Source of the DNA: Chloroflexota bacterium
Lineage (GTDB): Bacteria; Chloroflexota; Limnocylindria; Limnocylindrales; CSP1-4
Direction: 5' to 3'
NCBI GenBank assembly: GCA_003158675.1
Contig: PMKN01000075.1
Location: 36,673 to 70,935 of the forward strand
DNA length: 34,263 bases
Notes under the pieces: generated by a model
Told to the model about the DNA's origin: nothing
The model's input: only the letters and a program-made list of their open reading frames with translations
The model's database searches: none
Program-made: the position numbers and the translations under genes
Part shown: positions 11,801 to 34,263 of the stretch, piece by piece
Layout of the letters: each line of letters starts with the position of its first letter
Position numbering within the stretch: the stretch's first letter is position 1

Positions 11801-11802
11801 TC

Positions 11803-12822: not shown

Positions 12823-12847
12823 GGGCCGGTAGAGAAGGTGGTAGCCG

Positions 12848-13045
12848 ATGAGCAAGCGTCACCAGGCCAGCCGTCGCCGCACCTACGGTCGTAGGCAGCA
12901 CCAGCTGCACGAACGAGTGGACGGGTATTTCGACGGCGTGGGTCAGCTCGAAGAACCTCTCGGCGCCGAGGTCCGTCGGAGCTGGAGCCCGAGTTCGCTC
13001 GCTCGCAGGGCGACCGATCCGCTGCCCCAGCTTCAGGGGGCCTGA
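12848..13045 (+). CDS. Small basic protein between rsmH and ftsL, unknown
   Basis: A 65-residue product that I do not recognise. The first 25 residues are strongly basic (SKRHQASRRRTYGRRQHQLH), the middle acidic (VDGYFDGVGQLEEPLGAE), and the end Ser/Arg/Pro-rich. No membrane segment or cysteine. ATG follows GAAGGTGG with about 6 bases between. It fits tightly between rsmH (25 bases before) and ftsL (3 bases after) on the same strand, which supports it being a gene. It could be a nucleic-acid-binding or division accessory peptide; that is speculation. Confidence 0.6.
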   Translation: MSKRHQASRRRTYGRRQHQLHERVDGYFDGVGQLEEPLGAEVRRSWSPSSLARRATDPLPQLQGA

Positions 13046-13048
13046 CCA

Positions 13049-13444
13049 GTGGCCGTCTATCAGGGCGCGCGGCCGCGCTCGACGTTCATCCCGCGTCGGC
13101 GCCTGGAGGAATCCCTCCTCCGCCCCCAGGCGCCGGCGCCGCCCCGACGCCGGCAGCGCGTCGCGATGCGCGCGAACCGCCGCCCCCGCGCCGTGGGGAT
13201 CGTCATCGGCGTGATCGTGGTCGCCTTTCTCCTCAGCTTCGTCTCGCTCGTCCAAACGGTCCGGATCTCGACAAGCGGCTATGACATGGCGGTGCTCAAC
13301 GACCAGTTCGTGCAGCTCCAGAGCCAGCGTCAGCGGATCCTGTCAGATATCGATCGCCTGGGCCGCCAATCGGCGATCACGAGGCAGGCCATCGCCGACG
13401 GCTTGACTCAGCTGCCCGCGCCCGTCGTGCTGCCGGCTCGGTAG
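13049..13444 (+). CDS. ftsL: FtsL/DivIC-like septum formation protein
   Basis: Bitopic division protein, 131 residues, expected to pair with another DivIC-like partner and FtsQ to activate FtsW-FtsI. A basic, Pro/Arg-rich cytoplasmic part (1-47) leads into one transmembrane helix (48-70, VGIVIGVIVVAFLLSFVSLV). A short coiled coil follows (about 78-113, LNDQFVQLQSQRQRILSDIDRL). Sequence conservation in FtsL is low; the call rests on this topology and on position directly before ftsI. GTG start, with GGGGG upstream inside the preceding small gene. Confidence 0.75.
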   Translation: MAVYQGARPRSTFIPRRRLEESLLRPQAPAPPRRRQRVAMRANRRPRAVGIVIGVIVVAFLLSFVSLVQTVRISTSGYDMAVLNDQFVQLQSQRQRILSDIDRLGRQSAITRQAIADGLTQLPAPVVLPAR

Positions 13445-13457
13445 GGAGGCCGAGGCA

Positions 13458-15296: not shown

Positions 15297-15301
15297 CGGC
15301 G

Positions 15302-16804: not shown

Positions 16805-16820
16805 CCGTGGAGGATGACCG

Positions 16821-17849
16821 TTGAACGAGCACGGGGTTGTGTTCATACAAGGCTTGCTGCTGGCGTTCGGCTGCGTCGTGATCCTGATGCCGCCCTACAT
16901 CCGGCTGCTGCACTGGCTCGGCATGGGCAAGAAGATCCGCGAGGAAGGACCGGACTCGCACCTTATCAAGCAGGGCACGCCCACGATGGGCGGGGTCCTG
17001 CTGGTGGCCGTGATTCTGGCGCTGGCCTACTTCCTCGATGCCATGGACGCTTCGACTTACTCGCCGCTCGTAGTCCTCGCCCTGGTCGGTGGACTTGGCG
17101 CCGTGGACGACTTCTTGAACGCCAGAACCGGCATCGGCATCCGAGGCCGTCAGAAGGTCGTGTGGCAGACGATCGTGGCAATCGGCGTGGCCATCTACAT
17201 CCAGAACCACTTCAGCTTCAACGGGTTCCGCGTCCCGTTCGTCGGCAACGTCGAGTTCGTCTCGGTCGTCCAGATCCCGTTCACTGACCGTGGATTTGAG
17301 GTTGGCGCATTCTTCTTCATCGTCGTGGCCGTCATTGCCATCGTCGGTGCCAGCAACGGCGTGAACCTGACCGACGGCCTCGATGGCCTGGCGGGCGGCA
17401 CGCTCGTCTTCGCTTTCATCAGCTATCTGATGATCGCGCTGCTCAACGATCCCGCCCAACCGAATCTGGCCCTCGTCTGCGCGATCGTGGTTGGCGCGAT
17501 ACTCGGCTTCCTGTGGTTCAACGTTCATCCGGCCCAGGTCTTCATGGGCGATTCCGGGGCCCTGTCGCTTGGCGGAATGCTAGCCGTCGTGGCCCTGATC
17601 ACTGGTCAGGTCATGATCCTGCCCTTCATCGGCCTGATCTTCGTGCTCGAAACAGCCTCGGACATCATCCAGGTCGCCAGCTTCAAGCTCCGTCGCAAGC
17701 GCGTCTTCCGCATGGCCCCGCTCCACCACCATTTCGAGCTCGGCGGTTGGAATGAAGAGAAGGTGACGATGCGTTTCTGGATCGTCGGCGCTCTGGCCGG
17801 TCTGCTAGGGGTGACGCTCTTCGTCACCTCGATCCCCAACCCGAAGTAG
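16821..17849 (+). CDS. mraY: Phospho-MurNAc-pentapeptide transferase
   Basis: Integral membrane enzyme making lipid I from UDP-MurNAc-pentapeptide and undecaprenyl phosphate, 342 residues, with about ten hydrophobic helices. Family motifs are present in order: KQGTPTMGG, the Asp pair in GAVDDFLNARTGIG, NGVNLTDGLDGLAGG, FMGDSGALSLGG and PLHHHFELGGW. TTG start at 16821 is supported by GGAGG 7 bases before it and by the hydrophobic N-terminus starting directly after. It lies 16 bases after murF and 7 before murD. Confidence 0.96.
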   Translation: MNEHGVVFIQGLLLAFGCVVILMPPYIRLLHWLGMGKKIREEGPDSHLIKQGTPTMGGVLLVAVILALAYFLDAMDASTYSPLVVLALVGGLGAVDDFLNARTGIGIRGRQKVVWQTIVAIGVAIYIQNHFSFNGFRVPFVGNVEFVSVVQIPFTDRGFEVGAFFFIVVAVIAIVGASNGVNLTDGLDGLAGGTLVFAFISYLMIALLNDPAQPNLALVCAIVVGAILGFLWFNVHPAQVFMGDSGALSLGGMLAVVALITGQVMILPFIGLIFVLETASDIIQVASFKLRRKRVFRMAPLHHHFELGGWNEEKVTMRFWIVGALAGLLGVTLFVTSIPNPK

Positions 17850-17856
17850 GCGAGCG

Positions 17857-19434
17857 ATGGTAGGACGGGTCGTCGACCTCGACGGGCTGACCGCAGACAG
17901 CGTGCGCGATGGCGGGTTCGAAGGGCGCTCGATCACGGTTCTGGGTCTGGCGCGCAGCGGCGTGGCAATGGCGCGTTTCTTCGCCGACCTCGGGGCGCAC
18001 GTGACCGTCTACGACGGCAGATCGGCGGCCGAATTGGAGGCGGCGATCGAATCGCTGGGCGACCGCAACATCGAGCTGGCGCTCGGGCCGCAGGTCGAGC
18101 CCGCCACTGCCTGGGCCGGCGCCGACCTGGTGGCGACATCTCCGAGCATCAACCCGGACTTCCCCACGACCGAACCGAAGCTGAGGGCGGCGCTGGCGGC
18201 GCTCGTCGAGGCTCACCGGAAGGATCCGTCTGAGGCGCCGGCGCTTGTCAGTGAGCCGGACCTGGTGCTGCGGATGTGCCCCTGCCCGACGATCGGGGTT
18301 ACGGGTACGAAAGGCAAGACGACGACCGCGTCTCTGGCGGCCGCGCTGCTGGCCACGGACTCGGAGCATCCGGCAATTCTGGGTGGGAACATCGGCATCC
18401 CGCTGATCGAGCGGCTGCTCGATCTCACGCCCCGGCACCGGGTCGTCATAGAACTCTCGGAGCTGCAGCTGCCGACGCTTTCTCGCGGGACGACCGTCGC
18501 GGTCTACACCAACGTCACCTCGGATCATCTCGATCGCCACGGATCGCTGGCGGCGTACCGGGCCGCAAAGCGGCGCCTCGCCGAGCTGGTGGACTCCAGG
18601 GGCCTAGTCGTGCTCAACGGTGACGATCCTGTGGTTGCCTCGTACGCCCATTGGGCGCCGGCAACCGTCGTCACGTACAGGCGCGCCGCGCCGGCAGAGG
18701 GCGAGGTGGGTCTCGATGATGGCTGGATCGTCGCCAGCTCACTGCTCGCGAGCGGGCACCCCGGCGTCCCCGACCTGGATTCGTTCGTCAGAATCATGCC
18801 CGTCTCCGAACTCTCTATCCCGGGCGCACACAACGTTTCCAATGCCCTCGCCGCTGTGGCGGTCGCGTTGCTCTTCGGCATCCCGGCCGCCTCGATCCGC
18901 AGCGCCGCCGCCGCTTTCGCCGGAGTGGAGAACCGTCTGGAACCCGTGGCGACGGTGGAGGGAGTGCGGTTCGTCAACGACTCGCAGGGGACACAGCCTG
19001 ACGCCGTGATCGCGGCTCTGCGGGCTTTTCCGCGGCCGCTCGTTCTGATCGCCGGCGGCCGCGACAAAGGCGTGGATCTCTCGGGTCTGGGCCCCGTGGC
19101 GGCGGAACGAGCTGACGCGGCGGTGCTCATCGGCGAGTCAGGACCGGCGCTCGCCGCCCTCTTTCGCGCTAGCGGAGTGGCCCGCGTGGAGCGGGCGACC
19201 ACGCTCGGGGAGGCCGTGGATCGGGCCGATTGGATCGCGCGCGAGGCTCTGGCGGCGATCAGCGCCGGCGGCGCTGGTGCCGCCGGCCAAGCCAGCGGCG
19301 GCCCGGCGACCGTCCTCCTCAGCCCGGCCGCTGCGAGCTTCGACATGTTCGCCGACTATGCCGCGCGCGGCGCCGCGTTCAGGGAGGCCGTGGCGGCACT
19401 GGCGAGTCGCCGCGCGCGCGAGACGGCGCGATGA
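17857..19434 (+). CDS. murD: UDP-MurNAc-L-Ala:D-Glu ligase
   Basis: ATP-dependent addition of D-Glu to UDP-MurNAc-L-Ala in the cytoplasm, 525 residues, somewhat longer than the usual 440-470. An N-terminal Rossmann-like UDP domain (VLGLARSGVAMARFF) precedes the ATPase motifs GVTGTKGKTTT, GGNIG, ELSELQL and NVTSDHLDRHG. The C-terminal domain has NDSQGTQPDA where E. coli-type MurD has NDSKATN, then AGGRDKG and LSPAAASFDMF. The extra length is mainly an Ala/Gly-rich stretch near the end and a Glu/Ala-rich stretch before the P-loop. Its stop overlaps ftsW in ATGA. Confidence 0.94.
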   Translation: MVGRVVDLDGLTADSVRDGGFEGRSITVLGLARSGVAMARFFADLGAHVTVYDGRSAAELEAAIESLGDRNIELALGPQVEPATAWAGADLVATSPSINPDFPTTEPKLRAALAALVEAHRKDPSEAPALVSEPDLVLRMCPCPTIGVTGTKGKTTTASLAAALLATDSEHPAILGGNIGIPLIERLLDLTPRHRVVIELSELQLPTLSRGTTVAVYTNVTSDHLDRHGSLAAYRAAKRRLAELVDSRGLVVLNGDDPVVASYAHWAPATVVTYRRAAPAEGEVGLDDGWIVASSLLASGHPGVPDLDSFVRIMPVSELSIPGAHNVSNALAAVAVALLFGIPAASIRSAAAAFAGVENRLEPVATVEGVRFVNDSQGTQPDAVIAALRAFPRPLVLIAGGRDKGVDLSGLGPVAAERADAAVLIGESGPALAALFRASGVARVERATTLGEAVDRADWIAREALAAISAGGAGAAGQASGGPATVLLSPAAASFDMFADYAARGAAFREAVAALASRRARETAR

Positions 19435-20783
19435 CCGAGCGGGCTCGCGGCGGACTCGACTATGCCGGCCGTTCGTATGCGCCCGTGGATCTAGAGCCCG
19501 TCAACCGCGCCAGCGTACGGAGATCCGAGCGAGCCGCCGCCAGACCGCTTCCCGTTCGCCCGCCCGGCATCGGGCCCAAAGGGGGGCCGAAGCGCGAGTT
19601 GCACGACCCCGACTGGGTCATCGTCGTGGCCGTGATCGCGCTGGCTGCAATCGGGATCCTGATGGTCTACTCGGCCTCGGCGATTCCCTCATATGCGCTC
19701 ACCCAGAACACCTTCCAGATGGTGGCGCCCCAGATCGCCGCGGGCCTGGCTGGCCTGACGGCAATGATCGTGCTGGCCAAGCTCGACTACCGCTACCTGC
19801 GCAAGCTCAGCATCGCACTTGCGATAATCGCCCTCGTTCTGCTGGTGATCGTCCTGACTCCCATCGGCGTTGCCTCCGGCGGATCCTCCAGGTGGATCAG
19901 GCTGGGGTCGTTCTTCGAGGTGCACCCCTCGGAGGTGGCCAAGCTCACGATGGTGATCTACCTGGCGCACTGGTTGGCGACCCGCGGAACGCAGATCAAG
20001 AGTTTCTTCCACGGCGCCGTCCCGTTCTGGATCATCGTCGCCCCGTTCGTCGTGCTGGTAGCGCGCGAGCCGGACATCGGGACCACCGCCGTCATCGCCG
20101 CCATAGCCTTGACCCTCTTCTTTGTAGCCGGGGCGAACATCTTCCATCTTGGGATGGCTCTCGCGGCCGCCGCTGCAGGGGGTGGCCTCCTCATTCTCGC
20201 GGTGGGCGACTACGCGCTGCGGCGGATCCAGGTCTTCCTCGATCCATGGTCGGATCCGGCTGCCGGGTACCACACCATCAAGGGTCTGGAAGCTCTGGCC
20301 GCGGGCGGGCTCTTTGGCACAGGCCTTGGCAACGACCGAGTGATCGTGCCCTACGCCTACAACGACTTCGTCTTCTCGGTGATCGCCCAGGAACTTGGAT
20401 TCGTAGGGGGACTTGTCGTCGTTGGCTTGTTCGTCGCTCTTGCCTGGGCCGGCATTCGGACCGCCCTTCGGGCGCCCGACACCTTCGGCGGGCTGCTGGC
20501 GGCCGGCGTGACGGCCTGGATCTCATTCCAGGCGATCATCCACATCTGCGTTGTCGTGGCGCTGGTGCCGGTCACCGGAATCACGCTGCCCTTCGTGTCG
20601 CAGGGCGGCTCGTCGCTGGTCGTGAGCTTTGCGGCCGCCGGCATTCTCTTGTCCGTGTCGCGGGAAACCGTCGAGCGAGGTTGGGTCAATGCGTCTGCTG
20701 ATAGCGGGCGGGGGTACGGGAGGACATATATTCCCGGCTCTCGCCGTAGCGCGATCGTTGCAGGCCCGCCCGGTCGCACCTGA
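19431..20783 (+). CDS. ftsW: Septal peptidoglycan polymerase FtsW (SEDS family)
   Basis: Lipid II glycosyltransferase working with FtsI, 450 residues, about ten membrane helices after a 60-residue basic cytoplasmic start. SEDS signatures include SSRWIRLGSFFEVHPSEVAK, AREPDIGTT with the conserved catalytic-site Asp, GLFGTGLGNDR, NDFVFSVIAQELGF, and VTGITLPFVSQGGSS. ATGA overlap with murD sets the start. The frame runs 95 bases past the murG start, giving a 30-residue Arg/Gly-rich tail in an alternative frame of murG; a genuine but unusually long overlap. Confidence 0.94.
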   Translation: MTERARGGLDYAGRSYAPVDLEPVNRASVRRSERAAARPLPVRPPGIGPKGGPKRELHDPDWVIVVAVIALAAIGILMVYSASAIPSYALTQNTFQMVAPQIAAGLAGLTAMIVLAKLDYRYLRKLSIALAIIALVLLVIVLTPIGVASGGSSRWIRLGSFFEVHPSEVAKLTMVIYLAHWLATRGTQIKSFFHGAVPFWIIVAPFVVLVAREPDIGTTAVIAAIALTLFFVAGANIFHLGMALAAAAAGGGLLILAVGDYALRRIQVFLDPWSDPAAGYHTIKGLEALAAGGLFGTGLGNDRVIVPYAYNDFVFSVIAQELGFVGGLVVVGLFVALAWAGIRTALRAPDTFGGLLAAGVTAWISFQAIIHICVVVALVPVTGITLPFVSQGGSSLVVSFAAAGILLSVSRETVERGWVNASADSGRGYGRTYIPGSRRSAIVAGPPGRT

Positions 20784-21840
20784 GCTGGCCTGGATCGGGG
20801 GCCACCGCGGCCTGGAATCGCAGGTCGTTCCCGAAACGGGGATTCCGTTCCGGCGTCTAGTCCTGCGCTCGTTGCGGACCGTGGGTCTGGACATCGATGC
20901 CGTTCTGGACCCGATCCGGCTGTGCCTCTCGGTCCCTCAGGCCTTCGCGATGCTGCTTGCGCGCCGGCCTGCGGCGATCTTCACGACGGGTGGCTACGTA
21001 ACTGTGCCGGTTCTGCTGAACGCCTGGCTGCTGCGCATTCCCGTGGTCATGTGGGACGGCAACTACGTGCCCGGTCGGAGCGTCCGCTGGACCGCCAGGT
21101 TGGCCCGGTGCCTCGCGGTCAGCTTCGAGGCGACGTGCCTGGCACTGGGCGGGCGGAGGCCGTGCTTCGTGACCGGGACGCCGATCCGAAACCCAGGCGC
21201 AATTGACCGGACGGCGGCACGCACCAGGCTGGGTGTGGCCTCGAATGAGCGGCTGTTGCTGATCTTCGGCGGGTCGCAAGCGGTGCGTCGCTTCAACCTC
21301 GCGGTGGCCGAGGCCCTGCCACGGTTGGTCGAGAAGACGGTGGTCCTGCACGTGACAGGCGCAGCCGGGTCTGACGCGGCGGCTGCCGGGCGGGATGCGC
21401 TGCCGGCTAACCTGCGCCAGCGCTACCGTCCGGTCAGATTCCTGGGCGACGAGATGGGCGCGGCCCTGGCGGCGGCCGACCTGGTGGTAGGCCGTGCCGG
21501 GTCGTCCACGCTGGCCGAGGTGGCGGCCTTCGGCTTGCCCATGGTCGTCGTCCCGTACCCCCACGCGGCCGGGCATCAGCGGCGCAACGCCGAGGAGATG
21601 GTTGCGGCGGGGGCTGCGCGCCTGGTCGAAGACGACGCCTTCGACGCCGACGCGCTGCTGGCTGCCGCCGCCATCCTCGACGATCCCGCGCAATGCGCCG
21701 CGATGGCGGCGGCCGCCGCCTCCCGGGCGCGACCCGGCGCCGCGGAGGCGGTGGCGGAGCTGCTGCTCGCAGCCGCGGAACGGCGACCGTTGCCGCCGGC
21801 GAAGGCGCTGGACGAGATATCCAGGGGAGTGGCTTCGTGA
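20689..21840 (+). CDS. murG: UDP-GlcNAc:lipid I N-acetylglucosaminyltransferase
   Basis: Peripheral membrane GT-B enzyme converting lipid I to lipid II, 383 residues. The N-terminal lipid I loop GGGTGGH is at residues 7-13. FTTGGYVTVPVLL is the second Gly-rich loop. The usual H-E-Q-N-x2-PG motif reads MWDGNYVPGRS. FGGSQAVRRFN and GRAGSSTLAEVAAFGLPMVV with PYPHAAGHQ form the UDP-GlcNAc site. ATG 20689 must be the start because the loop begins six residues later, so the overlap with ftsW is real. GCGAGG lies 8 bases upstream. The stop overlaps murB in GTGA. Confidence 0.94.
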   Translation: MRLLIAGGGTGGHIFPALAVARSLQARPVAPELAWIGGHRGLESQVVPETGIPFRRLVLRSLRTVGLDIDAVLDPIRLCLSVPQAFAMLLARRPAAIFTTGGYVTVPVLLNAWLLRIPVVMWDGNYVPGRSVRWTARLARCLAVSFEATCLALGGRRPCFVTGTPIRNPGAIDRTAARTRLGVASNERLLLIFGGSQAVRRFNLAVAEALPRLVEKTVVLHVTGAAGSDAAAAGRDALPANLRQRYRPVRFLGDEMGAALAAADLVVGRAGSSTLAEVAAFGLPMVVVPYPHAAGHQRRNAEEMVAAGAARLVEDDAFDADALLAAAAILDDPAQCAAMAAAAASRARPGAAEAVAELLLAAAERRPLPPAKALDEISRGVAS

Positions 21841-22889
21841 CGGGCGCTCGTGGCGAGCGCGCCGCCGCCGAACGCGCCGCCGCCGAACGCGCCGCCGAGG
21901 TCGGCTCGGCTGACCTGGCCGCCACGCTCGCGCGATCCGTCGGCGTGAGAGCCCGCCGCGACGTCCCGCTCGCGCGCTTCACGACGATGCGCGTCGGCGG
22001 TCCGGCCGACCTGCTTACCAGCGCCCATGATGCGAGCCAGCTCGCCGCTCTAGTCCGCTTTGCCCGTGCGGCGCGGGTTCCACGCCTCGTCATCGGCCGC
22101 GGCAGCAACCTCGTGGTCAGCGACGCCGGCTTCCGCGGTCTGGCCATCCTGTGCCGCGCCGAGGGCGGCCGGGTGGAGGGCAATCGTATGATCGTTGAGG
22201 CGGGCATGCCTCTGGCCCGCGCGGCCACGCTGGCCCAGAAGGCCGGCCTGACCGGCTTGGAGTTCGGGCTCGCCATCCCCGGCACGGTGGGCGGCGCGGT
22301 CTGGGCCAATGCAGGGGCGCACGGTTCGGACATCGCGGCCGTGCTTGAGTCGGCCCGCGTCCTGCGCGTCGACGACAGTGAGGCTGACGAGAGCGTCGAA
22401 ACCCTTGGCCTGGCGTACCGCGAGAGCCGGCTCAAGCATCCGAGCGCGCAGTGGAGCGCCGACGCGCTGGCCGCCCCGGAGCCTTCGGCCGGCGGGGGCT
22501 CGGTCGACATCGTCCTCGAGGCCACGTTCCACCTGACCCCGTCCGATCCCGCCGCCATCGAGGCGCGCCTGGACGAGATCCGACGATGGCGACAGCAGCA
22601 CCAGCCGCTGAACCGGCCGAGCGCAGGCAGCGTCTTCCGCAATCCGGCGGGGGACTCGGCCGGTCGCCTCATCGACGCCGCCGGGCTCAAGGGAGCGCGC
22701 GTCGGCGGCGCCATCATCAGCGAGAAGCACGCCAACTTCATCGTCAACGACGGGACCGCCTCGGCGGCCGATATCCGTCGCCTGGCCGATACGGTTCGGA
22801 CGCAAGTCGCGGGCAGGTTCGGCGTCGAGCTGGTATACGAGGTCCAGTTCGTCGGCGATTGGTCCAACTGGGGGCAGGAGGAGAGATGA
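21837..22889 (+). CDS. murB: UDP-N-acetylenolpyruvoylglucosamine reductase
   Basis: FAD- and NADPH-dependent reduction giving UDP-MurNAc, 350 residues. FAD-domain motifs are FTTMRVGGPAD, GRGSNLVVSDAGFRG and IPGTVGGAVWANAGAHG. The substrate domain has YRESRLKH, SAGSVFRNP with the catalytic Ser265, and IDAAGLKGARVGGAIISEKHANFIVN, typical of the shorter type II MurB. The start GTG overlaps the murG stop and follows GGGGAG. The first 20 residues are Ala/Glu/Arg repeats encoded by a 15-base tandem repeat and are probably a disordered lead. No murC lies before it. Confidence 0.94.
   Translation: MTGARGERAAAERAAAERAAEVGSADLAATLARSVGVRARRDVPLARFTTMRVGGPADLLTSAHDASQLAALVRFARAARVPRLVIGRGSNLVVSDAGFRGLAILCRAEGGRVEGNRMIVEAGMPLARAATLAQKAGLTGLEFGLAIPGTVGGAVWANAGAHGSDIAAVLESARVLRVDDSEADESVETLGLAYRESRLKHPSAQWSADALAAPEPSAGGGSVDIVLEATFHLTPSDPAAIEARLDEIRRWRQQHQPLNRPSAGSVFRNPAGDSAGRLIDAAGLKGARVGGAIISEKHANFIVNDGTASAADIRRLADTVRTQVAGRFGVELVYEVQFVGDWSNWGQEER
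21859..21899 (+). repeat. 15-bp tandem repeat at the start of murB
   Basis: GCGCCGCCGCCGAAC occurs twice in tandem (21859-21873, 21874-21888) with a partial third copy, encoding R-A-A-A-E units before the MurB fold. Slippage here would change only the N-terminal lead by multiples of five residues. Confidence 0.75.
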
Positions 22890-24049
22890 GAGGCGACCTG
22901 ACCGGCCCGAAGGTGCGCACGACCGAACGCCGCAAAGTCGGCAGAGCGGTCGCGGTTCTGTTCGGCGGCCCGTCGGCCGAGCACGACGTCTCGGTCGTCT
23001 CGGGATGGGCGATCGCCGACGCCCTGGCCGACTCCGGATTCGCCTTGGAGCGGTTACTCATCGACCTATCGGGCCGGTGGTGGCAGGTCCCGGCTACCGC
23101 GGCGTCGGGTCGGCCTCGGTCGGGCGCCTTCGACGACCCGGCGAACCTGGGCGCGGCGGGGCCATGGCGGCCCGGCGAGGCGCTAGAACGGATGGCATCT
23201 CGCCCCGTGGCTCCGATCGTCTTCCCGGCGCTGCACGGCCCATTCGGTGAGGACGGCACCGTCCAGGCGCTGCTCGAGGCTTACGAGCTGCCGTACGCAG
23301 GTGCCGGCGTAGCCGCGTCTGCGGTCGGGATGGACAAGGCTCTGTTCAAGCGCCTGGCCCGCGGCCTGACTATGCCCGTGGTGGATTGGCTGGAGGTGCC
23401 GGCTTCCCGCTGGGCGGGCGCCCGCCAGGCGGTGCTCGACGAGTTGGCGGCATTCTCGGACCGACACGATGAGTCGCAGCTGATAATCAAACCGGCTCGG
23501 CTTGGTTCATCGGTCGGGATCTCGATCGCCCATTCGCCGGCGGAGCGCGGGCAAGCCCTCGACGACGCCTTCCGCTTCGACAGCCTGGCGGTCGTTGAGC
23601 GCTATCTCGATCACCCGCGCGAGCTGGAGGTGGCGATCGTAGGGAACGCCCCGGACGCGCTCGAGGCCTTTGGCCCTGGCGAGGTCTTCCCGGGTCGCGA
23701 GTTCTACGACTATGTGGCCAAGTACAGCGATGGCGTCTCCGGGGTCACTCCGAAAGCGGACGTTCCGGAGGCCCTCGGCGAGCGAATCCGGGCCCTCGCT
23801 CTGGACGCCTATCGGGCCATCGGCTGTGAGGGCTTCGCCCGGGTCGACCTGATGCTCGCGGGCGACGAGCTCTACCTCAGCGAGATCAACACGATCCCGG
23901 GCTTCACCCCGATAAGTCTCTTCCCGCAGATGGCGGGCACGGGCCTGGGCAGTTTCGCAGCCGTCTGCCGCCGCATCGTCGAACTTGCCGAAGAACGTGC
24001 GGCCTCGCGCGTGCGGAGCCGTCTGACGCCCGCCGACCTGCCGCGTTGA
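22886..24049 (+). CDS. ddl: D-alanine--D-alanine ligase
   Basis: ATP-grasp enzyme joining two D-Ala for the MurF step, 387 residues. Motifs in order: AVLFGGPSAEHDVSVVSG, FPALHGPFGEDGTVQALLE, YAGAGVAASAVGMDK, IIKPARLGSSVGIS (ATP-grasp Lys and Gly loop), and YDYVAKYSDGVSG. The metal-binding end is EGFARVDLMLAGDELYLSEINTIPGFT with Asp, Glu and Asn ligands. Insertions around 60-85 make it slightly longer than the usual 310-370. ATGA overlap with murB and GGAGGAG just upstream fix the start. Confidence 0.95.
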   Translation: MRGDLTGPKVRTTERRKVGRAVAVLFGGPSAEHDVSVVSGWAIADALADSGFALERLLIDLSGRWWQVPATAASGRPRSGAFDDPANLGAAGPWRPGEALERMASRPVAPIVFPALHGPFGEDGTVQALLEAYELPYAGAGVAASAVGMDKALFKRLARGLTMPVVDWLEVPASRWAGARQAVLDELAAFSDRHDESQLIIKPARLGSSVGISIAHSPAERGQALDDAFRFDSLAVVERYLDHPRELEVAIVGNAPDALEAFGPGEVFPGREFYDYVAKYSDGVSGVTPKADVPEALGERIRALALDAYRAIGCEGFARVDLMLAGDELYLSEINTIPGFTPISLFPQMAGTGLGSFAAVCRRIVELAEERAASRVRSRLTPADLPR

Positions 24050-24061
24050 TCCCATGATTCG

Positions 24062-24110
24062 CCGATGAGTTGCCGATGAGTCGCCGAGGCCCGCAGCCAT
24101 GCCGATGAGA
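24062..24110 (+). repeat. GCCGATGAG 9-bp repeats before and over the ftsQ start
   Basis: Exact GCCGATGAG copies at 24062, 24073 and 24102, with a degenerate copy near 24084. The third lies inside the first codons of ftsQ. They create several ATG codons close to the start (24099 and 24105 are in frame), so the exact start of ftsQ is hard to fix. Confidence 0.5.
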
Positions 24111-25265
24111 CCGGATCTGCCGCTGCGCCGCTCCGGGATGCAGGTTCGCCGACCGCAGATCCGGCGTGCCTCGCCGCGGCTCGGCATGGCGCAGGTCATG
24201 AGCCTGGTGCTCATGTTCCTGTGCCTAGCCACTGCCATCGCCATCAGCGGCTCGCCCTCGTTCGCGGCCCGGCGACTCCAGATCAACGGCGGGCGCTTCA
24301 CGGGCGACGCCGTCGTTCGGGCGATCGTCGGCATGGACAATTCGCCCAACCTCTTCCGCCTGCGCACGGACCGAATCGCCGCAGCGATCGTGGAGCTGCC
24401 GGCCGTCGCATCGGTCAAGGTCGAGGTTCGACTGCCGGACACGGTCGTCGTGACCATCGTCGAGCGCCAGCCGAAGATGATCTGGACAATTGGCGCGAGG
24501 CGGTACGTGGTGGACGACACCGGGCTGATCTTCGGCGAAGTGGATGCCGTCGGAAACCCCGTCCCTCTGTCGGCCGGCTTCGACCCGGCCGCAACTCCTT
24601 CCGTCGGGCCGACGGCCTCGCCGCAGGAGACCCAAAGCGTGGTCCCGACCGAGGCTTCGGCGTCGGTCCGGCCTCAGGGTTCGGCGGCCCAATCCGCCAA
24701 AGCGGCGTCCAAATCCACACCCAAGGCTACGCCGGCCAAGGGTGCAAAGGCCACGCCGAAGGCCACCGCCACGCCGAAGGCCACTCCGACTCCTACGGCC
24801 ACGCCGCGGCCGAGCCCGACCGCCACGATTCCGCCGTCGCCCTCGCTGGTGCCCGTCCCGACGGCTGATCCGGGCACAACTCCCGGCCCGGACGTGCTGG
24901 GACTTCCGGTCGTGAACGACCGCCGGGCCGACGACTCCGCCCTGACGTTCGGCGACGTGATCGACCCGGTTGCGCTGGACGCCGGCTATCGCCTGGCGAG
25001 CCTGACCCCCGCCGAAGTCGGCAGCGCGGCGCCCAGCCTCGATGTCGTCGTCGACGACAGCTACGGCTTCACGCTCAGCTCCGGTCACAATGGTTGGGTC
25101 GCCGAGTTTGGCTTCTACACTGAGACCCTGCGCAAAGACAGTGTCATCCCGGTCCAGGTCCAGGCCCTGGCCTCACTTCTCAGCGACAGGGAGAGCCAGG
25201 TCGCCTGGGTCTGGTTAATGGCGGACGTGGCGGACAATCGCGTCAACACATACCTGGCAAAGTGA
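24099..25265 (+). CDS. ftsQ: FtsQ/DivIB-like division protein with low-complexity insert
   Basis: Bitopic scaffold of the FtsQ-FtsL-DivIC complex, 388 residues. A basic cytoplasmic start leads to one membrane helix (about 31-50). A POTRA domain follows (about 58-127: LQINGGRFTGDAVVRAIVG; VKVEVRLPDTVVVTIVERQPK), then the start of the beta domain (RRYVVDDTGLIFG). Residues about 158-265 are a Pro/Thr/Lys/Ala-rich stretch with repeated KATP units, after which the domain resumes (LGLPVVNDRR...). Typical FtsQ proteins are 230-290 residues; the difference is this insert. The start ATG is uncertain by two codons; GAGG is 10 bases upstream. Confidence 0.85.
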   Translation: MPMRPDLPLRRSGMQVRRPQIRRASPRLGMAQVMSLVLMFLCLATAIAISGSPSFAARRLQINGGRFTGDAVVRAIVGMDNSPNLFRLRTDRIAAAIVELPAVASVKVEVRLPDTVVVTIVERQPKMIWTIGARRYVVDDTGLIFGEVDAVGNPVPLSAGFDPAATPSVGPTASPQETQSVVPTEASASVRPQGSAAQSAKAASKSTPKATPAKGAKATPKATATPKATPTPTATPRPSPTATIPPSPSLVPVPTADPGTTPGPDVLGLPVVNDRRADDSALTFGDVIDPVALDAGYRLASLTPAEVGSAAPSLDVVVDDSYGFTLSSGHNGWVAEFGFYTETLRKDSVIPVQVQALASLLSDRESQVAWVWLMADVADNRVNTYLAK

Positions 25266-25359
25266 GCATAGAGGTGTGAGTGGGGCCTTCGAACTGCCCC
25301 GGTCAGCCGCCGCCAGATAAGTCAAACTTAGCGAGACAGAGCGAGACACAAGACCGAGG

Positions 25360-26601
25360 ATGGAGCGAGTGGAACGCGAAGCGGTACTGGTCGGAATCGA
25401 CGTCGGTACGAGCAAGGTCTGCGCGCTCATCGGTGAGGTGGGGCGCGACGGCGGCCTGACCATTGTTGGCAAGGGCGTCGTTCCTTCGGCCGGCCTCAAG
25501 AAGGCTGTCGTCGTCAACATCGAGCAGACGGTTCGGTCGATCACCGGCGCCGTCGAGCATTCGGAGCGATCCTCCGGCTATCAGATCGACCGCGCCTTCG
25601 TCGGCGTCGGTGGCAAGCACGTCGAGAGCCAGAACTCGCGCGGCGCCGTGGCTGTCAGCGGCCACCACCGAGAGGTCACGAGGGAGGACATCAACCGCGC
25701 CACGGAAGTCGCGCGTGCGGTGACGATCCCGTCCGACCGCGAGGTCCTCCACGTCCTGCCGCGCGGATTCATCGTCGACGGCCAGGAGGGCGTCAAAGAC
25801 CCGCTCGGGATGAGTGCCATTCGCCTGGAGATCGAGACCCATATCGTCACGGCTTCGGCGACAGCGGTCCGGAACCTGGCCAAGTGCGTGCAGTCCGCCA
25901 ACGTCCGCATCGACGAGTTGGTCGCCGCTTCGCTGGCATCGGCGGAGACGGTGCTCTCCGATACGGAGCGCGAGCTGGGCGTGGCCGTCGTCGACATCGG
26001 GGCCGGGACGATCGATCTGGCTCTCTTCCTCGACGGTCAGTCCTACAAGACGGCCGTCCTGCCCGTGGGTGGCAACAACGTCACCAACGACGTGGCAATT
26101 GGCCTCAAGACCAGCCTCCAGGTCGCCGAGGATCTCAAGATCCAGCACGGCAGCTGCGATCTCTCGACCATCGATCCGGAGGAGATGGTCAGTGTTGCGA
26201 TGCTAGGCGAACCGGGCGGCCGCTCGATCCATCGTCGGGAGATCTGCGAAATCATCGAGGCCAGGATGCGCGAGACCTTCGAGCTCCTGCGAGCCGAGAT
26301 CAGGATGGCCGGCGAGGGGATGCTCCCGGCGGGCGTGGTTCTGACCGGCGGCGCCGCCCAACTCGGCGGCATCGCGGCCATGGGCCGGGACATCCTCGAC
26401 ATGCCGGTGCGAGTTGCCGGACCGATGGAGATAGGCGGCCTGACGGACAACATCCTGAACCCGGCCTACAGCACCGCCATCGGCCTGCTCATGTGGGGCG
26501 CAAAGGGCCTCGGTGGAGCCGACGGCGCGCGCTTCGAATCGGTGCCGGCCGGCGGCGCGGTGGGCCGAGTGCGCGACGCCCTGCGCCATTTGTTCCCGTA
26601 G
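25360..26601 (+). CDS. ftsA: Cell division protein FtsA
   Basis: Actin-like membrane tether for FtsZ, 413 residues. The phosphate-1 loop LVGIDVGTSKVCALIGEVG is at the N-terminus, VVDIGAGTIDLALF is the phosphate-2 loop, and VVLTGGAAQLGGIAAMGRDIL the adenosine loop. The 1C subdomain lies between about residues 85 and 165. The C-terminus, GRVRDALRHLFP, is a short amphipathic helix suited to membrane binding. The ATG at 25360 touches a GAGG; GTG at 25369 with GAGG 9 bases upstream is an equally good start. The 94-base gap before it has no clear promoter, only a short GGGGC/GCCCC hairpin. Confidence 0.95.
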   Translation: MERVEREAVLVGIDVGTSKVCALIGEVGRDGGLTIVGKGVVPSAGLKKAVVVNIEQTVRSITGAVEHSERSSGYQIDRAFVGVGGKHVESQNSRGAVAVSGHHREVTREDINRATEVARAVTIPSDREVLHVLPRGFIVDGQEGVKDPLGMSAIRLEIETHIVTASATAVRNLAKCVQSANVRIDELVAASLASAETVLSDTERELGVAVVDIGAGTIDLALFLDGQSYKTAVLPVGGNNVTNDVAIGLKTSLQVAEDLKIQHGSCDLSTIDPEEMVSVAMLGEPGGRSIHRREICEIIEARMRETFELLRAEIRMAGEGMLPAGVVLTGGAAQLGGIAAMGRDILDMPVRVAGPMEIGGLTDNILNPAYSTAIGLLMWGAKGLGGADGARFESVPAGGAVGRVRDALRHLFP

Positions 26602-26618
26602 GTCGAAGGACCGGCTTC

Positions 26619-27023
26619 TTGAAGACCGCCGAGCTGACGGTCCAGACCGGGCGACACCGCGGGCTGCATGACCTGACCTCCGAATGCCAGCGGTTCGTGG
26701 CCGGCGAGGGCGACGGCCTGCTCGTGGTCTTCGTGCCGCATGCTACGGCAGGTCTGGTCGTCATCGAGCTCGGCGCCGGCTCCGACGCGGACCTGATGGC
26801 GGCTCTGGACCGGCTCTTGCCGCGCGGCGCCGCCTGGGTCCACCAGCACGGCGCGCCAGGCCACGGCGCCGATCACGTCCTGCCGCTCCTGGCCCCGCCG
26901 TCGCTCACAGTGCCCGTCGCCAGCGGCCGCTTGACGCTCGGGACGTGGCAGTCGATCGCCCTTCTGGATCCCAACTCGGACAATTCCGTGCGGACGATTC
27001 GGCTCACTTTCGTGCCCGCCTGA
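26619..27023 (+). CDS. YjbQ/UPF0047-family protein
   Basis: A 134-residue protein of the conserved YjbQ family; E. coli YjbQ has reported weak thiamin-phosphate synthase activity, but the true role is unclear. Signatures are [13 protein letters not shown] (usual HTSA), [19 protein letters not shown] with clustered His likely to bind metal, [23 protein letters not shown], and the closing RTIRLTF. TTG start at 26619 is favoured by AAGGA 9 bases upstream and by [11 protein letters not shown] as a natural beginning. It sits between ftsA (17 bases before) and ftsZ, an unusual place. Confidence 0.88.
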
Positions 27024-27164
27024 AACCCCTCGTTCGGGCTGCCGGCAGAGGCGAGCTAGTGCACAGCCGATCTTCCGGTGCATGTTCGCACACTTGTTCT
27101 CATGGCACGCTCAATTGTTACGTTTCATTGTGCGGTTGATAGGGCATGCAAGCCAGGTTCGGCG

Positions 27165-27170
27165 TATACT
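27165..27170 (+). promoter_or_regulatory. Candidate -10 box of an ftsZ promoter
   Basis: TATACT lies in the 250-base gap before ftsZ, in the most AT-rich patch of the dcw region. TTGATA at 27136 is 23 bases upstream, too far for a standard spacer, so the -35 element is unclear. Initiation near 27177 would give a leader of about 97 bases. No gene is seen in this gap. Confidence 0.4.
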
Positions 27171-27273
27171 CGCCACATCCGAGCCGGCCCAGCATCCGCT
27201 ACGCCTCTATCGATCTCGGGCGGCCGGACCGAACGACAAAAGCATCTGCCGGAGAGCCACCGGAGGATTAGAA

Positions 27274-28542
27274 ATGCCGCTACGGTCCGATTCCGAGAAC
27301 TGCGCATTGATCCGTGTCATCGGCGTCGGTGGCGGCGGGTCGAATGCCGTCAACCGAATGATTCGCGCCGAGATGATGGGGGTCGAGTTCATCGCCCTCA
27401 ACACGGATTCCCAGGCCCTCCTCCAGTCCGACGCGCCGCACAAGATTCGGATCGGCGACAAGATCACGCGGGGCCTTGGCGCGGGCGGCGATTCCTCGAT
27501 TGGCCAGAAGGCGGCAGAGGAAGACACCGAGAAGATCACCGAAGCGCTCCGCGACTCGGACCTGGTGTTCATCACGGCCGGACTGGGCGGCGGCACTGGC
27601 TCTGGCGCCGCTCCGATCGTGGCCGAGATCGCCAAGGACCTGGGCGCGCTCACCATCGGCGTCGTGACCAAGCCCTTCGCCTTCGAGGGTGTTCGCCGCA
27701 AGCTCGTGGCTGAACGCGCGGCCGAGGCTCTCAAGGCCAAGGTGGACACGCTCATCACCATCCCGAACGACCGCCTCCGCGACGTTGTTCAGAAGAACAC
27801 CTCGATGGTGGAGGCCTTCCGTTACGTTGACGACGTTCTACGCCAGGGCGTTCAGGGGATCAGCGACATCATCACCGTCCCGGGTCTCATCAACCTGGAC
27901 TTTGCCGACGTCCGGACGATCATGAAGGATGCCGGCTCCGCTCTGATGGGCATCGGGCGTGCCACAGGCGACAACCGAGCCCTGGACGCGACCAGGCAGG
28001 CAATCGCCAGCCCGTTGCTCGAGGTCAACATCAACGGCGCCCAGGGCATCCTGTTCAACGTGTCCGGCTCGTCGGGTCTGAGCCTCTTCGAAGTGACCGA
28101 GGCCGCCGAAGAGATCCGCTCAGTTGCGGATCCGGAGGCGAACATCATCTTCGGCACCAGCTTCGACGACCACCTCGGCGAAGAGATCGTCATCACCGTC
28201 ATCGCGACCGGGTTCGACTCCTCTCGCAAGCGCGACGTGGCCAGGCGCGAAGCCGCTGCGGCCACGCCGGGCGTCGGCCACTCGCAGCGTTTTGACTCGG
28301 CCGACTTCCTGGCGGAACTCGAGCGTCAGCGCCAGTACTCGGCGGAGCCGGTGTCCGTCCACTCGCGTGGTTCGGGCACTTACGGATCGAATGGCTCGCT
28401 CGACCGCATGCCTGTGCCGGTGCCGATTCAGACGACGTCAGTCCGGCGGCCGCAGATCGATCGACCGCGGCCAACGTACGACGACACGGATCTCGAGATC
28501 CCGAGCTTCCTGCGGCGTCCTCCGCAGGAGGAGCAGGGGTAA
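27274..28542 (+). CDS. ftsZ: Cell division protein FtsZ
   Basis: Tubulin-like GTPase forming the Z ring, 422 residues. [17 protein letters not shown] is the first GTP contact, [10 protein letters not shown] (about 106-115) the tubulin signature, and NDRLRDVV with [12 protein letters not shown] the T7-loop region that completes the neighbour's active site. A linker of about 60 residues leads to the C-terminal peptide [10 protein letters not shown] that binds FtsA and other partners. ATG at 27274 follows GGAGGA at the right distance; the frame is open 64 codons upstream, but that part is not conserved-looking. It probably has its own promoter. Confidence 0.97.
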
Positions 28543-31350: not shown

Positions 31351-32994
31351 ATGGAACGACGACTCCTTTCGGGCGACGAGGCGGTCGCGCTGGCTGCGCT
31401 CCACGCCGGCGTGGCTCTGGGCACGGGCTATCCCGGCACGCCCTCCACTGAAATCCTCGAGACGTTCTCGGAGCTGGGCGGGCGCGCCCAGTGGGCGCCC
31501 AACGAGAAAGTGGCGCTGGAGGTTGGGCTCGGCGCCGCGTTCGCCAGCGCGCGGACGCTGATCACGATGAAGCACGTTGGGCTCAACGTGGCGGCGGATC
31601 CGCTCTTCACCGCCGCGTATACGGGCGTCAGCGGCGCGCTGATCGTCGTCAGTGCCGACGACCCGGGCATGTCCAGCTCCCAGAACGAGCAGGACAACCG
31701 CCGCTACGCGATTGCCGCGGGGCTGCCCGCGATCGAACCGGCGGACTCGCAGGAGGCCTACGACTTCTTCTTCGCCGCGGTCGAGATTTCGGAACGCTGG
31801 CGCATTCCGGTGCTCTACCGCATGACGACTCGAGTCTGCCATTCGAAGTCGATCGTCGTGGCGCGCGACGCCGCCGACCGGCTGGCGGCCCCGACGCCTC
31901 ATTTCGAGCACGACATCTCGGGCCGGGTCATGATCCCGGCAAACGCTCGTCCTGCGCACCGGCGGCTGCGGGCCAAGCTCGCAGAGATCGCCGCCTGGGG
32001 CGAGGAGTGCTCGCTCAACCATGTGGATCCGGGGACTGGCCGGCTCGGCATCATCACGGCCGGCGTCGCCTACCTCCATGTCGCCGAAGCCGCACCCGGC
32101 GCCAGCATCCTCAAGATCGGCCTCGTCAACCCGCTGCCCATCGACCGGGCTCGCGCCTTCGCCGCCTCGGTGGACCGTGTCGTCGTCGTGGAGGAAGGCG
32201 ATCCCGTCATCGCCGACGCGCTCCGCGCCGCCGGAATAGTGGTGGAGTCGAAAGCGGAGATGTACCGCTTCGGCGAGCTGGATGTACCTCGGGTTCGGCG
32301 CATTCTGGCGGGCGACATCACCCCGGAACTCGCTCCGGCTACGGGCAGGACGCCCGAACTCTGCCCGGCCTGCCCGTACCACACCGTCTACGGCACACTC
32401 AAGAAGCACGACTGCATCGTCGCCGGCGACATCGGCTGCTACAGCCTGGGCGTTCTGCCGCCGTATCAGGCGATGGACACGTGCGTGGCGATGGGCGCCT
32501 CGATCGGCGTCGGCCTGGGACTGCGCCACGTCCTGCCCGAAGCCGAGGCGCGGCGCGTGGTCTCGGTCATCGGCGACTCCACGTTCGTCCACTCCGGCAT
32601 CAGCGGCCTGGTGGAGATGGCCTACAATCCGCCGCCCACCGGCCACGTGGTCCTGATCCTCGACAACGGCACGACCGCGATGACCGGCCAGCAGGAGCAT
32701 CCCGGCACCGGCCGGACGCTCGAGCATGGCCCCACCAACAAGCTTTCGATCGAAGGCGTGGCCTCGGCCATCGGCATCGGCAGCGTGACCGTGATCGACC
32801 CGTACGCCGACCCGGAAGGCTTCGAGCGCCTGCTGCTCGAACGCCTGGCCGCGACCGAGCTTTCGGTCATCGTTGCTCGCCGGCCCTGCGTCCTGGCGGC
32901 AGCCGACATCCGCAAGTGGGAGCAGCAGGCCGCGGAGTTTCGGGCCAAGGCTCCGGCCCAGGCCGCGTTCGACCTTCCGGTAGGGGAGCGATGA
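31351..32994 (+). CDS. iorA: Indolepyruvate oxidoreductase alpha subunit, without ferredoxin domain
   Basis: TPP enzyme that oxidatively decarboxylates aryl-pyruvates to aryl-acetyl-CoA with IorB, 547 residues. The N-terminal pyrimidine-binding part has GTGYPGTPSTEI, NEKVALEVGLGAAFA, KHVGLNVAADPLF and SSQNEQDNR. The C-terminal TPP part has CPACPYHTVY, GDIGCYSLGVLPPY, IGDSTFVHSGISGL and DNGTTAMTGQQEHPGTG. Most IorA proteins are about 600 residues or more and end in a two-[4Fe-4S] ferredoxin domain. Here only about 34 residues without cysteine follow RRPCVL. The stop overlaps iorB in ATGA. Ribosome site weak (AGG). Confidence 0.93.
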   Translation: MERRLLSGDEAVALAALHAGVALGTGYPGTPSTEILETFSELGGRAQWAPNEKVALEVGLGAAFASARTLITMKHVGLNVAADPLFTAAYTGVSGALIVVSADDPGMSSSQNEQDNRRYAIAAGLPAIEPADSQEAYDFFFAAVEISERWRIPVLYRMTTRVCHSKSIVVARDAADRLAAPTPHFEHDISGRVMIPANARPAHRRLRAKLAEIAAWGEECSLNHVDPGTGRLGIITAGVAYLHVAEAAPGASILKIGLVNPLPIDRARAFAASVDRVVVVEEGDPVIADALRAAGIVVESKAEMYRFGELDVPRVRRILAGDITPELAPATGRTPELCPACPYHTVYGTLKKHDCIVAGDIGCYSLGVLPPYQAMDTCVAMGASIGVGLGLRHVLPEAEARRVVSVIGDSTFVHSGISGLVEMAYNPPPTGHVVLILDNGTTAMTGQQEHPGTGRTLEHGPTNKLSIEGVASAIGIGSVTVIDPYADPEGFERLLLERLAATELSVIVARRPCVLAAADIRKWEQQAAEFRAKAPAQAAFDLPVGER

Positions 32995-33527
32995 ACCCGC
33001 TACCCGCGACCCGCGTCACCAACGTCGTCCTCGCCGGCCTCGGCGGCCAGGGCGTCATAAAGGCCTCGGACATCCTCGCCGACGCAGCACTACGAGCCGG
33101 CCTGGACGTCAAGAAGGCCGAACTCCACGGCATGAGCCAGCGCGGCGGCTCGGTCACCTCCGATATCCGTTTCGGGCCCAGGGTCCTCTCGCCGATGGTT
33201 TCCGCCGGCGAAGCCGACTTCCTGGTCGTCCTTGCGCCGTCCGAAGTCGAGGTCACGCGACCGCTTCTCCGCCCCGGCGGCGTGCTTCTCGCCCCGGACC
33301 TGATCCCGGATGCGGACCTGCCCAACAAGCGCAGCCTGAACGTGGCCCTGCTCGGCGCCCTGAGCTGGTATCTCGACATTCCGGCCGACACTCTCCTCGA
33401 GGCCGTACGTGCCGCTCTGCCGGAGCGGCTGCACCGCGTCAACGAGCAGGCCTTCGAACTCGGCCGATCGGTGGTTGCAAGGGAGGATGGCGGGGCTGCC
33501 GCACCGGAAGGGCAGCCTCGCCCCTGA
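32991..33527 (+). CDS. iorB: Indolepyruvate oxidoreductase beta subunit
   Basis: Small gamma-type subunit of the 2-oxoacid oxidoreductase family, 178 residues. VVLAGLGGQGVIKASDILADAA is the signature start, HGMSQRGGSVTSDIRFG the second conserved block, and LVVLAPSEVEVTRPLLRPGG the third. It has no iron-sulfur motif, as expected. GGGGAG lies 4 bases before the ATG. With iorA it should form the active alpha-beta enzyme. Confidence 0.94.
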   Translation: MNPLPATRVTNVVLAGLGGQGVIKASDILADAALRAGLDVKKAELHGMSQRGGSVTSDIRFGPRVLSPMVSAGEADFLVVLAPSEVEVTRPLLRPGGVLLAPDLIPDADLPNKRSLNVALLGALSWYLDIPADTLLEAVRAALPERLHRVNEQAFELGRSVVAREDGGAAAPEGQPRP

Positions 33528-33547: not shown

Positions 33548-33934
33548 TCAGGCAGTGGCCCGTCCGCGCCCCGGGTCGGCCCATCGCAGGGCCAGGACCG
33601 CGATGCGCGCGAGGGTACCGACTTCGATCACGCTGAAGAACAGGTAGTAGGACGTCGGTGTCCCGACGGCCAGCGAGCCGATCTGAACCGTCGCCATAAA
33701 TCCGGCGGCCACGACGTTGGCCCAGCGGCCGGCTCGGTGCCCCAGCATCCGGGATAGAAGGATCATCGCCATCTGGATGGATCCGCCGGCCGCGTGCGCC
33801 GCCGCCACGTCCCTGGCGGTGGCCGGGTCGAAGAGCGAAAGCCCGACGGGACTGCCATTCGAATCGGCCCGAAAACCCGCTGCCGTCCAGGGCACAATCT
33901 GCCTGTCGGAGGAGAAGCCGGAGTTCACCGCCAC
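33548..33934 (-). CDS. DUF6326-like membrane protein, apparently truncated (possible pseudogene)
   Basis: The last 80 residues look like the end of a small four-helix membrane family I associate with DUF6326: IQMAMILLSRMLGHRAGRWAN, VVAAGFMATVQIGSLAVGTP, TSYYLFFSVIEVGTLARI. Relatives begin with a membrane helix before the LFDP motif and have another between LFDP and AMILLSR. Here the first is replaced by unrelated polar residues and the second is missing (LFDPATARDVAAAHAAGGSIQ). So it may be a decayed gene or a shortened form. The start GTG at 33934 has no good ribosome site. It lies between iorB and the paaK-like gene on the opposite strand. Confidence 0.5.
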   Translation of the reverse strand: MAVNSGFSSDRQIVPWTAAGFRADSNGSPVGLSLFDPATARDVAAAHAAGGSIQMAMILLSRMLGHRAGRWANVVAAGFMATVQIGSLAVGTPTSYYLFFSVIEVGTLARIAVLALRWADPGRGRATA

Positions 33935-33969: not shown

Positions 33970-34263
33970 GTGAGCGTTTGGAACGATCCGCCGGGTGGAT
34001 TCCACCCGGTCAGCATGCCGGACTACTTGCCGCGCAGGCAGCTGGAAGCGATCCAGCTGCAACGGCTCCAGTCGGTCGTAGCCCGAGTGTACGAGCGCGT
34101 CCCGCTTCTCCGATCGCGCCTCGACGATCGTCAGCTGACGCCCGCCTCGATCGCTTCGCTGGCCGACATTTCGAAGCTGCCGTTCACCATCAAGGCGGAC
34201 CTGCGCGACACGTATCCGTTCGGGCTGTTCGCCAGCCCCATGGAGGAGATCGTCCGCCTCCAC
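33970..34263 (+). CDS. paaK: Phenylacetate-CoA ligase family protein, N-terminal part
   Basis: The first 98 codons of a gene running off the window. It reads WNDPPGGFHPVSMPDYLPRR, QLEAIQLQRLQSVVARVYERVP and SLADISKLPFTIKADLRDTYPFGLFASP, which is the N-terminal signature of PaaK-type adenylate-forming ligases that activate phenylacetate or other aryl acids with ATP and CoA. GTG start with GAGGAGGT 5 bases upstream. Position after iorAB fits a pathway through aryl-acetyl-CoA: IorAB makes it from the keto acid, and a PaaK enzyme interconverts the free acid and the thioester. ATP-binding motifs lie outside the window. Confidence 0.88.
   Translation, partial: MSVWNDPPGGFHPVSMPDYLPRRQLEAIQLQRLQSVVARVYERVPLLRSRLDDRQLTPASIASLADISKLPFTIKADLRDTYPFGLFASPMEEIVRLH

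Follow-up and report, generated by a model that had tools for sequence, protein, structure and literature searches.

Short indolepyruvate oxidoreductase alpha subunits without a C-terminal ferredoxin domain in a Chloroflexota genome and its bacterial relatives

The 2-oxoacid:ferredoxin oxidoreductases (OFORs) of Sulfolobus tokodaii, StOFOR1 and StOFOR2, have been described as carrying a sole [4Fe-4S] cluster, without an intramolecular ferredoxin domain (PMC5020499). According to the same report, the missing domain leaves a pocket that fits an external ferredoxin (14 Å between clusters in the docking model), StOFOR1 uses this ferredoxin efficiently as its acceptor, and the cluster is required for CoA-dependent oxidation and dispensable for non-oxidative decarboxylation (PMC5020499). 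Halobacterium, Aeropyrum and Hydrogenobacter KorAB are also named there as single-cluster OFORs, a design that by this 2016 account had been observed solely in aerobes from extreme habitats (PMC5020499). The KorAB of Mycobacterium tuberculosis (Rv2455c/Rv2454c) resembles the enzyme studied here in being an OFOR of two subunits whose beta subunit holds the TPP/cluster motif, and its physiological acceptor was not identified in its authors' account (PMC2773412). It is unlike our enzyme in being air-stable and acting on 2-oxoglutarate. We take it to be without a ferredoxin subunit.

The canonical indolepyruvate oxidoreductase (IOR), IorAB (TIGR03336/TIGR03334), shares with the locus analysed here the domain order of IorA through the TPP domain, the four cluster cysteines and the iorB partner. 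Our IorA differs from it in having no C-terminal eight-cysteine domain and in scoring under the curated cut-off; most of the long IorAs in the phylum are 44-50% identical to it.

Domain architecture and proximal cluster motif

The window, by which we mean the whole stretch of 34,263 nucleotides that was analysed, lies in contig C13 of a soil-type Chloroflexota draft genome (2.78 Mb, 82% completeness) and carries the following features towards its end.

31351..32994, plus strand: iorA, short form, 547 aa; POR_N part (domain I/II-like) and TPP/cluster domain, without ferredoxin domain
31393..31869, plus strand: POR_N domain of IorA, residues 15-173 (Pfam)
32362..32364, plus strand: codon of C338, probable proximal-cluster ligand, first Cys of CxxC; aligns with residue 12 of 5b48_B (Sulfolobus OFOR beta)
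32371..32373, plus strand: codon of C341, probable proximal-cluster ligand, second Cys of CxxC
32428..32871, plus strand: TPP_enzyme_C domain of IorA, residues 360-507 (Pfam)
32437..32439, plus strand: codon of C363, probable proximal-cluster ligand (GDIGC)
32887..32889, plus strand: codon of C513, probable fourth ligand (RRPC), final Cys of IorA
32890..32991, plus strand: Cys-free IorA tail, 34 residues; site where long IorAs hold the eight-Cys ferredoxin domain
32991..33527, plus strand: iorB, 178 aa, POR domain; overlaps the iorA stop (ATGA)
33548..33934, minus strand: DUF6326 gene, antisense between iorB and paaK
33970..34263, plus strand: 5' part of paaK, phenylacetate-CoA ligase-like; reaches the window end

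The iorA frame has no internal stops, and Pfam found only two domains in its product, POR_N (PF01855, 44.2 bits against the 27 needed) and the TPP-binding domain (PF02775, 61.3 against 21.9), both expected of the OFOR superfamily, with the partner's POR gamma domain (PF01558) in iorB at 109 bits against 27.4. The TIGR03336 (IOR_alpha) model aligned over positions 2-540 of 595, leaving the last ~55 positions unmatched, and the score of 506.6 bits falls below the curated cut-off of 650.9. No cysteine follows C513 in the 34 residues to the end, where a canonical IOR alpha would have eight. The earlier note was thus right that the C-terminal ferredoxin domain is absent and that iorB is coupled by ATGA, the iorB ATG (32991) overlapping the iorA TGA.

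The fold of the part that is kept was examined with an AlphaFold2 model (pLDDT 84.2). In a structure search the top match was Magnetococcus OGOR (6n2n_A, Z 33.7, rmsd 3.0 Å, 313 aligned), with Sulfolobus OFOR2 (5b46_A) at Z 32.3, 3.2 Å and 318 aligned, both spanning only the N-terminal ~325 residues of IorA; the cluster domain is covered by PFOR matches only, such as 1b0p_A (Z 30.2, 4.8 Å, 510 aligned, residues 1-534). No match is to an OFOR beta chain by itself, which does not count against the fold, and the model as predicted has the OFOR core.

To compare relatives, we scanned contigs and confirmed 339, of which the best 80 loci were kept; removal of identical copies left 115 IorA ORFs, and 86 short and 25 long sequences were compared after four with scores outside both ranges were dropped. 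A wider set of 205 distinct IorA ORFs gave 197 past a coverage filter that dropped eight. These comprise 91 short forms, 89 long forms (at least seven Cys within the 110 residues after the C513 column), 16 GltD-like fusions identified by motif and one fusion to IorB, class sizes that are no frequencies since the loci are the best-scoring ones.

The columns of C338, C341 and C363 hold cysteine in 86/86 short and 25/25 long IorAs, and that of C513 in all 25 long and in 84 of the 85 short sequences with a letter there (L050 being the exception). In the wider set all four are cysteine in every short (91/91), long (89/89) and GltD-fused (16/16) sequence. In profile alignments of the C-terminal domain, residue 12 of 5b48_B pairs with C338 (E 0.006 and 5.8e-6), and CWGC, IGC and NC of H. 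pylori OorB (8ys5_C, E 8.7e-7) pair with the CxxC, GC and PC motifs. The same profiles also match many cluster-free TPP enzymes, some better than OFOR beta chains, as expected because the TPP fold is shared. In the Sulfolobus beta chain the Cys12-Cys15 loop has been described as a CXGC motif whose cysteines bind the proximal cluster (PMC5020499). By conservation and by alignment with OFOR beta chains, the four proximal-cluster cysteines of the superfamily are present, and C338, C341, C363 and C513 probably bind one proximal [4Fe-4S] cluster. That this motif is intact, with C513 itself a probable ligand, is a point absent from the earlier note. Two further cysteines are typical of the short clade: C163 (31837-31839), found in 86/86 short and 13/25 long IorAs, and C355 (32413-32415), eight residues before C363, found in 82/86 short IorAs as against 0/25 long ones.

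In having one proximal motif and no intramolecular ferredoxin domain, the window IorA has the architecture of a single-cluster OFOR, the cluster number being predicted, and thereby resembles StOFOR1/2, for which external ferredoxin has been reported as acceptor. The subunits are divided differently: StOFOR has gamma and alpha in one chain and beta in the other, whereas here alpha and beta form IorA and gamma is IorB. This assignment partly follows OFOR nomenclature. Identity to the window IorA is 15-19% over the aligned N-terminal part, and the substrates differ. By score and by its missing ferredoxin domain the enzyme lies outside the canonical TIGR03336 IOR; its design is that of a single-cluster OFOR, and among the subfamilies IOR is the nearest to it.

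Gene context and probable substrates

Among loci with enough downstream sequence, as counted from match positions, the short iorA is followed by an iorB-like coding sequence in 76/76 (700 nt or more), by paaK in 60/68 (2200 nt or more) and by an ACT gene in 54/66 (3000 nt or more). The window genome has a gene on the reverse strand between iorB and paaK, and two N directly past the window end interrupt paaK; the ligase and then an ACT_8 gene go on beyond. At least in locus L063, the distance from iorA to the start of paaK is about 550 nt, leaving no space for the DUF6326 gene. Elsewhere in the window, at 11728-28542, we saw by eye a series of rsmH-like to ftsZ-like genes that is presumably a dcw (division and cell wall) cluster, which places iorAB in its vicinity.

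With the PaaK-type AMP-forming ligase and the ACT gene, the short IorAB would interconvert arylpyruvates and arylacetyl-CoAs, which this context suggests are probably its substrates, although these neighbours are compatible with aromatic substrates without proving them. The IOR genes of Bacteroides likewise lie beside a PaaK-type, AMP-forming arylacetate-CoA ligase, and a biosynthetic role has been proposed there (PMC13285125). For an ADP-forming acyl-CoA synthetase there was no match above cut-off in the host genome (best 73.9 against 567.15 bits), a weak absence at 82% completeness. The host has a prephenate dehydratase and so also holds part of the standard phenylalanine route. On balance we lean slightly towards a role that is reductive, in arylacetate assimilation, or reversible.

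Electron route and its alternatives

We consider it likely that the window enzyme is a single-cluster 2-oxoacid:ferredoxin oxidoreductase of the IOR branch that uses a separate ferredoxin. Electrons from the TPP-bound intermediate of IorA would pass to the proximal [4Fe-4S] cluster (C338, C341, C363, C513), with IorB providing the gamma domain, and from this cluster directly to a separate ferredoxin, which would dock at the place of the built-in domain as modelled for the Sulfolobus OFOR. Pieced together from its parts, the path from TPP through the proximal cluster to an external ferredoxin would be the simplest one, and we infer cluster binding, ferredoxin as acceptor, substrate and direction alike. 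The full conservation of the ligands, together with the role of the StOFOR cluster, speaks for oxidation-reduction in the short IorA. Of the exits proposed in the earlier note, a separate ferredoxin is the likeliest given the small ferredoxins of the host; an altered cofactor path or a non-oxidative role is not needed, since the proximal motif is fully kept and one-cluster OFORs are known.

A search of the genome for a free ferredoxin, as that note had proposed, found small ferredoxin-like ORFs on contigs C52 and C75, outside the iorAB locus. Each has one classical CxxCxxCxxxC motif by motif scan and a second, N-terminal C-x7-C-x3-C-x3-C group by eye, of the kind found in FdxA-type dicluster ferredoxins; on the strength of this second group they are candidate dicluster proteins. 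The host also encodes a two-motif ferredoxin-like ORF on C80, cut by the contig end, a small two-motif ORF on C62 beside an OFOR alpha gene other than iorA, and larger ferredoxin-domain proteins. Tblastn with a host ferredoxin and the ferredoxin tail of a long IorA (E up to 1e-3) found no ferredoxin gene in the 80 loci (868,017 bases), and a separate ferredoxin gene in the iorAB operon was therefore rejected. The ORFs with two C..C..C...C motifs in these loci are three large ones (L078, 1202 aa; L082, 1395 aa; L134, 247 aa), with no small ferredoxin among them. In L078 and L082 the ORF, measured stop to stop, lies just upstream of iorA, and that of L078 is PFOR-like by eye.

Other IorAs leave their core by a different module. 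The 16 GltD-like fusions (L265-L268 and L272-L283, for example L272 on the minus strand) come mainly from Myxococcota and Planctomycetota-side samples and fall mostly into one well-supported group of the IorA tree described below, with a second group of three. Pfam confirmed Fer4_20 and Pyr_redox_2 in L272, the one fusion checked. With such an NAD(P)/FAD module they are possibly NAD(P)-linked IORs, of which we found no description in the open-licence PMC literature, and they may be more novel than the short IorA. A single Pirellulales ORF (L123:910-3372, plus strand) joins IorA and IorB through a linker with an MshEN domain (PF05157, 3.7e-21), a domain usually known from type II secretion ATPases. 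In a broader and, taken as a whole, rather unlikely reading, the exit module of IorA would be exchangeable (a 2[4Fe-4S] domain, a GltD-like NAD(P)/FAD module or nothing) and the one catalytic core re-wired to ferredoxin or NAD(P) by gain, swap or loss of a single domain; the short form would be mainly reductive, carboxylating arylacetyl-CoA, perhaps more oxygen-tolerant, and supplied with electrons by different carriers in each host.

The same fusions (16/197) suggest that IorA can be wired to NAD(P), and the short genes have no linked ferredoxin gene in the 80 loci. The proximal cluster might accordingly feed a flavoprotein encoded elsewhere, such as a GltD/NfnB-type NAD(P)H oxidoreductase, to give an NAD(P)-linked arylpyruvate dehydrogenase. 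We regard this as quite improbable, as no flavoprotein gene is a common neighbour in these loci, the tree does not place the GltD fusions next to the short clade, and single-cluster OFORs of known biochemistry have been described as using ferredoxin (PMC5020499).

A split system, in which the ferredoxin domain is now a separate dedicated subunit gene, has a model in four-subunit OFORs with a separate eight-Cys subunit, such as HpdDEFG as described (PMC13285125). The small two-motif ORF on C62 would suit it, as would a 120-aa ORF in another genome of the genus (G305), which lies on another contig and matches TIGR03336 positions 542-595. The two-query tblastn search found no such gene in the 868,017 bases of the 80 loci, however, and the C62 ORF adjoins a different OFOR gene; this explanation is very improbable, if conceivable for a dedicated gene at a distant site. 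About as improbable is that the enzyme has given up electron transfer and acts as a non-oxidative arylpyruvate decarboxylase. This would account for the missing domain, and StOFOR1 has been reported to carry out non-oxidative decarboxylation of pyruvate with neither cluster nor CoA (PMC5020499), but all four cluster ligands are fully conserved in the short clade, and iorB (76/76 loci) and the CoA ligase (60/68) are kept. We thus retain the external ferredoxin as the favoured acceptor. IorAs of this length, whose activity with ferredoxin the earlier note would have counted against its case, exist in large number, and our search of the open-licence PMC literature found no assay of any member of the short clade.

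Distribution and origin of the short form

The tail after C513 is 13-49 residues long (median 28) with at most two Cys in 83 of the 86 distinct short IorAs, the window's included; the three exceptions are a contig-end truncation (L049), an apparent frame change near the end (L050) and the L123 fusion. By comparison, all 25 long IorAs have eight Cys downstream of the C513 column, as had been claimed for canonical IorAs. That a frameshift or misassembly conceals the domain is a negligible possibility: the window genome is an 82%-complete draft with a 2-N gap just beyond the window end, but the short tail is shared by those 83 sequences from many assemblies, including the complete chromosome of Anaeromyxobacter oryzae (L092), and iorB begins immediately after iorA, so that a sequencing error is ruled out, as the earlier note had expected. 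The short IorA is a natural form and no local artefact. A CxxC is present in 13 of the 83 short tails, mostly of Anaeromyxobacter-like loci (for example L079, L083, L086, L092, L093, L097 and L099), at a variable position and not in the window tail; it could be a metal site or a remnant.

IorA was matched in each of the 21 genomes of the window's genus that were searched, with best E values no higher than 4.8e-55 and several of the matches partial; among the matches listed, none extends past model position 553 of 595. In 16 genomes from other genera of the family the same search gave nothing stronger than 2.0e-27, and in some no match at all. Across 301 sampled genomes of the phylum, the window IorA has matches at 1e-20 in 50; close matches are four of the genus and only one other (G232, 65% identity), the other full-length ones being 38-50% identical. 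The closest relatives are, by their records, Chloroflexi MAGs, many from fens. The best 80 of the 339 relatives span about ten bacterial phyla by their records: Chloroflexi, Anaeromyxobacter and other Myxococcales, Planctomycetes, Verrucomicrobia, Acidobacteria, Armatimonadetes, Hydrogenedentota, Sumerlaeota, Lentisphaerae, Proteobacteria (Ectothiorhodospira, Uliginosibacterium) and one Micromonosporaceae MAG. Individual taxon assignments may reflect binning errors, since the majority are MAGs; many are recorded from soil or sediment.

In genome samples taken around four of these hosts, IOR_alpha matched at 1e-60 in 33 of 398 genomes (around L129, Ectothiorhodospira), 99 of 247 (L100, an Acidobacteriota MAG), 55 of 246 (L108, a Sedimentisphaerales MAG) and 52 of 195 (L092, Anaeromyxobacter oryzae), and many matches around L100 and L092 stop near model position 540. 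The possibility that the short gene is an extra paralog was rejected, as it is the sole IOR_alpha match at 1e-50 in 19 of 20 host genomes chosen from the 80 loci; the exception (G361) has a second match, in a 1211-aa frame.

An IorA tree was built from 126 sequences thinned from the 197 (<78% identity, at least 430 letters) by a quick IQ-TREE search with SH-aLRT support only and midpoint rooting. The main short clade (41 short sequences and L123, 42 in all; support 100) lies inside the long-type IorAs, with the long form L246 adjoining it (97). Since the short form is thus mainly one clade nested among long IorAs, the built-in ferredoxin domain was probably lost in the ancestor of this widespread bacterial clade. 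The label 'short' changes five times on the tree, at least three of them forced by well-supported branches, and the short IorAs outside the main clade (L260/L262, L263, L294/L295), each followed by IorB-like sequence, suggest further losses. A distant IorA-like group (L187-L208; 711-759 aa open frames, 268-295 bits to TIGR03336) is represented by three sequences on a very long branch. The window IorA groups with Chloroflexi L075 (97) within an eight-member group (99) that includes Anaeromyxobacter among others, and this placement, with the patchy distribution in the family, suggests horizontal acquisition.

Our search of the open-licence PMC literature found no description of an IOR without the ferredoxin domain, which is weak evidence of absence. 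The ferredoxin-less IOR is apparently undescribed, yet the single-cluster architecture is already known, and the novelty is modest. The short IorA extends the single-cluster OFOR design to the IOR branch and to bacteria of about ten phyla. The curated TIGR03336 cut-off, exceeded in none of the 20 chosen host genomes, passes over these proteins, and a built-in ferredoxin of IOR should not be assumed in the energetics of aromatic amino-acid metabolism.
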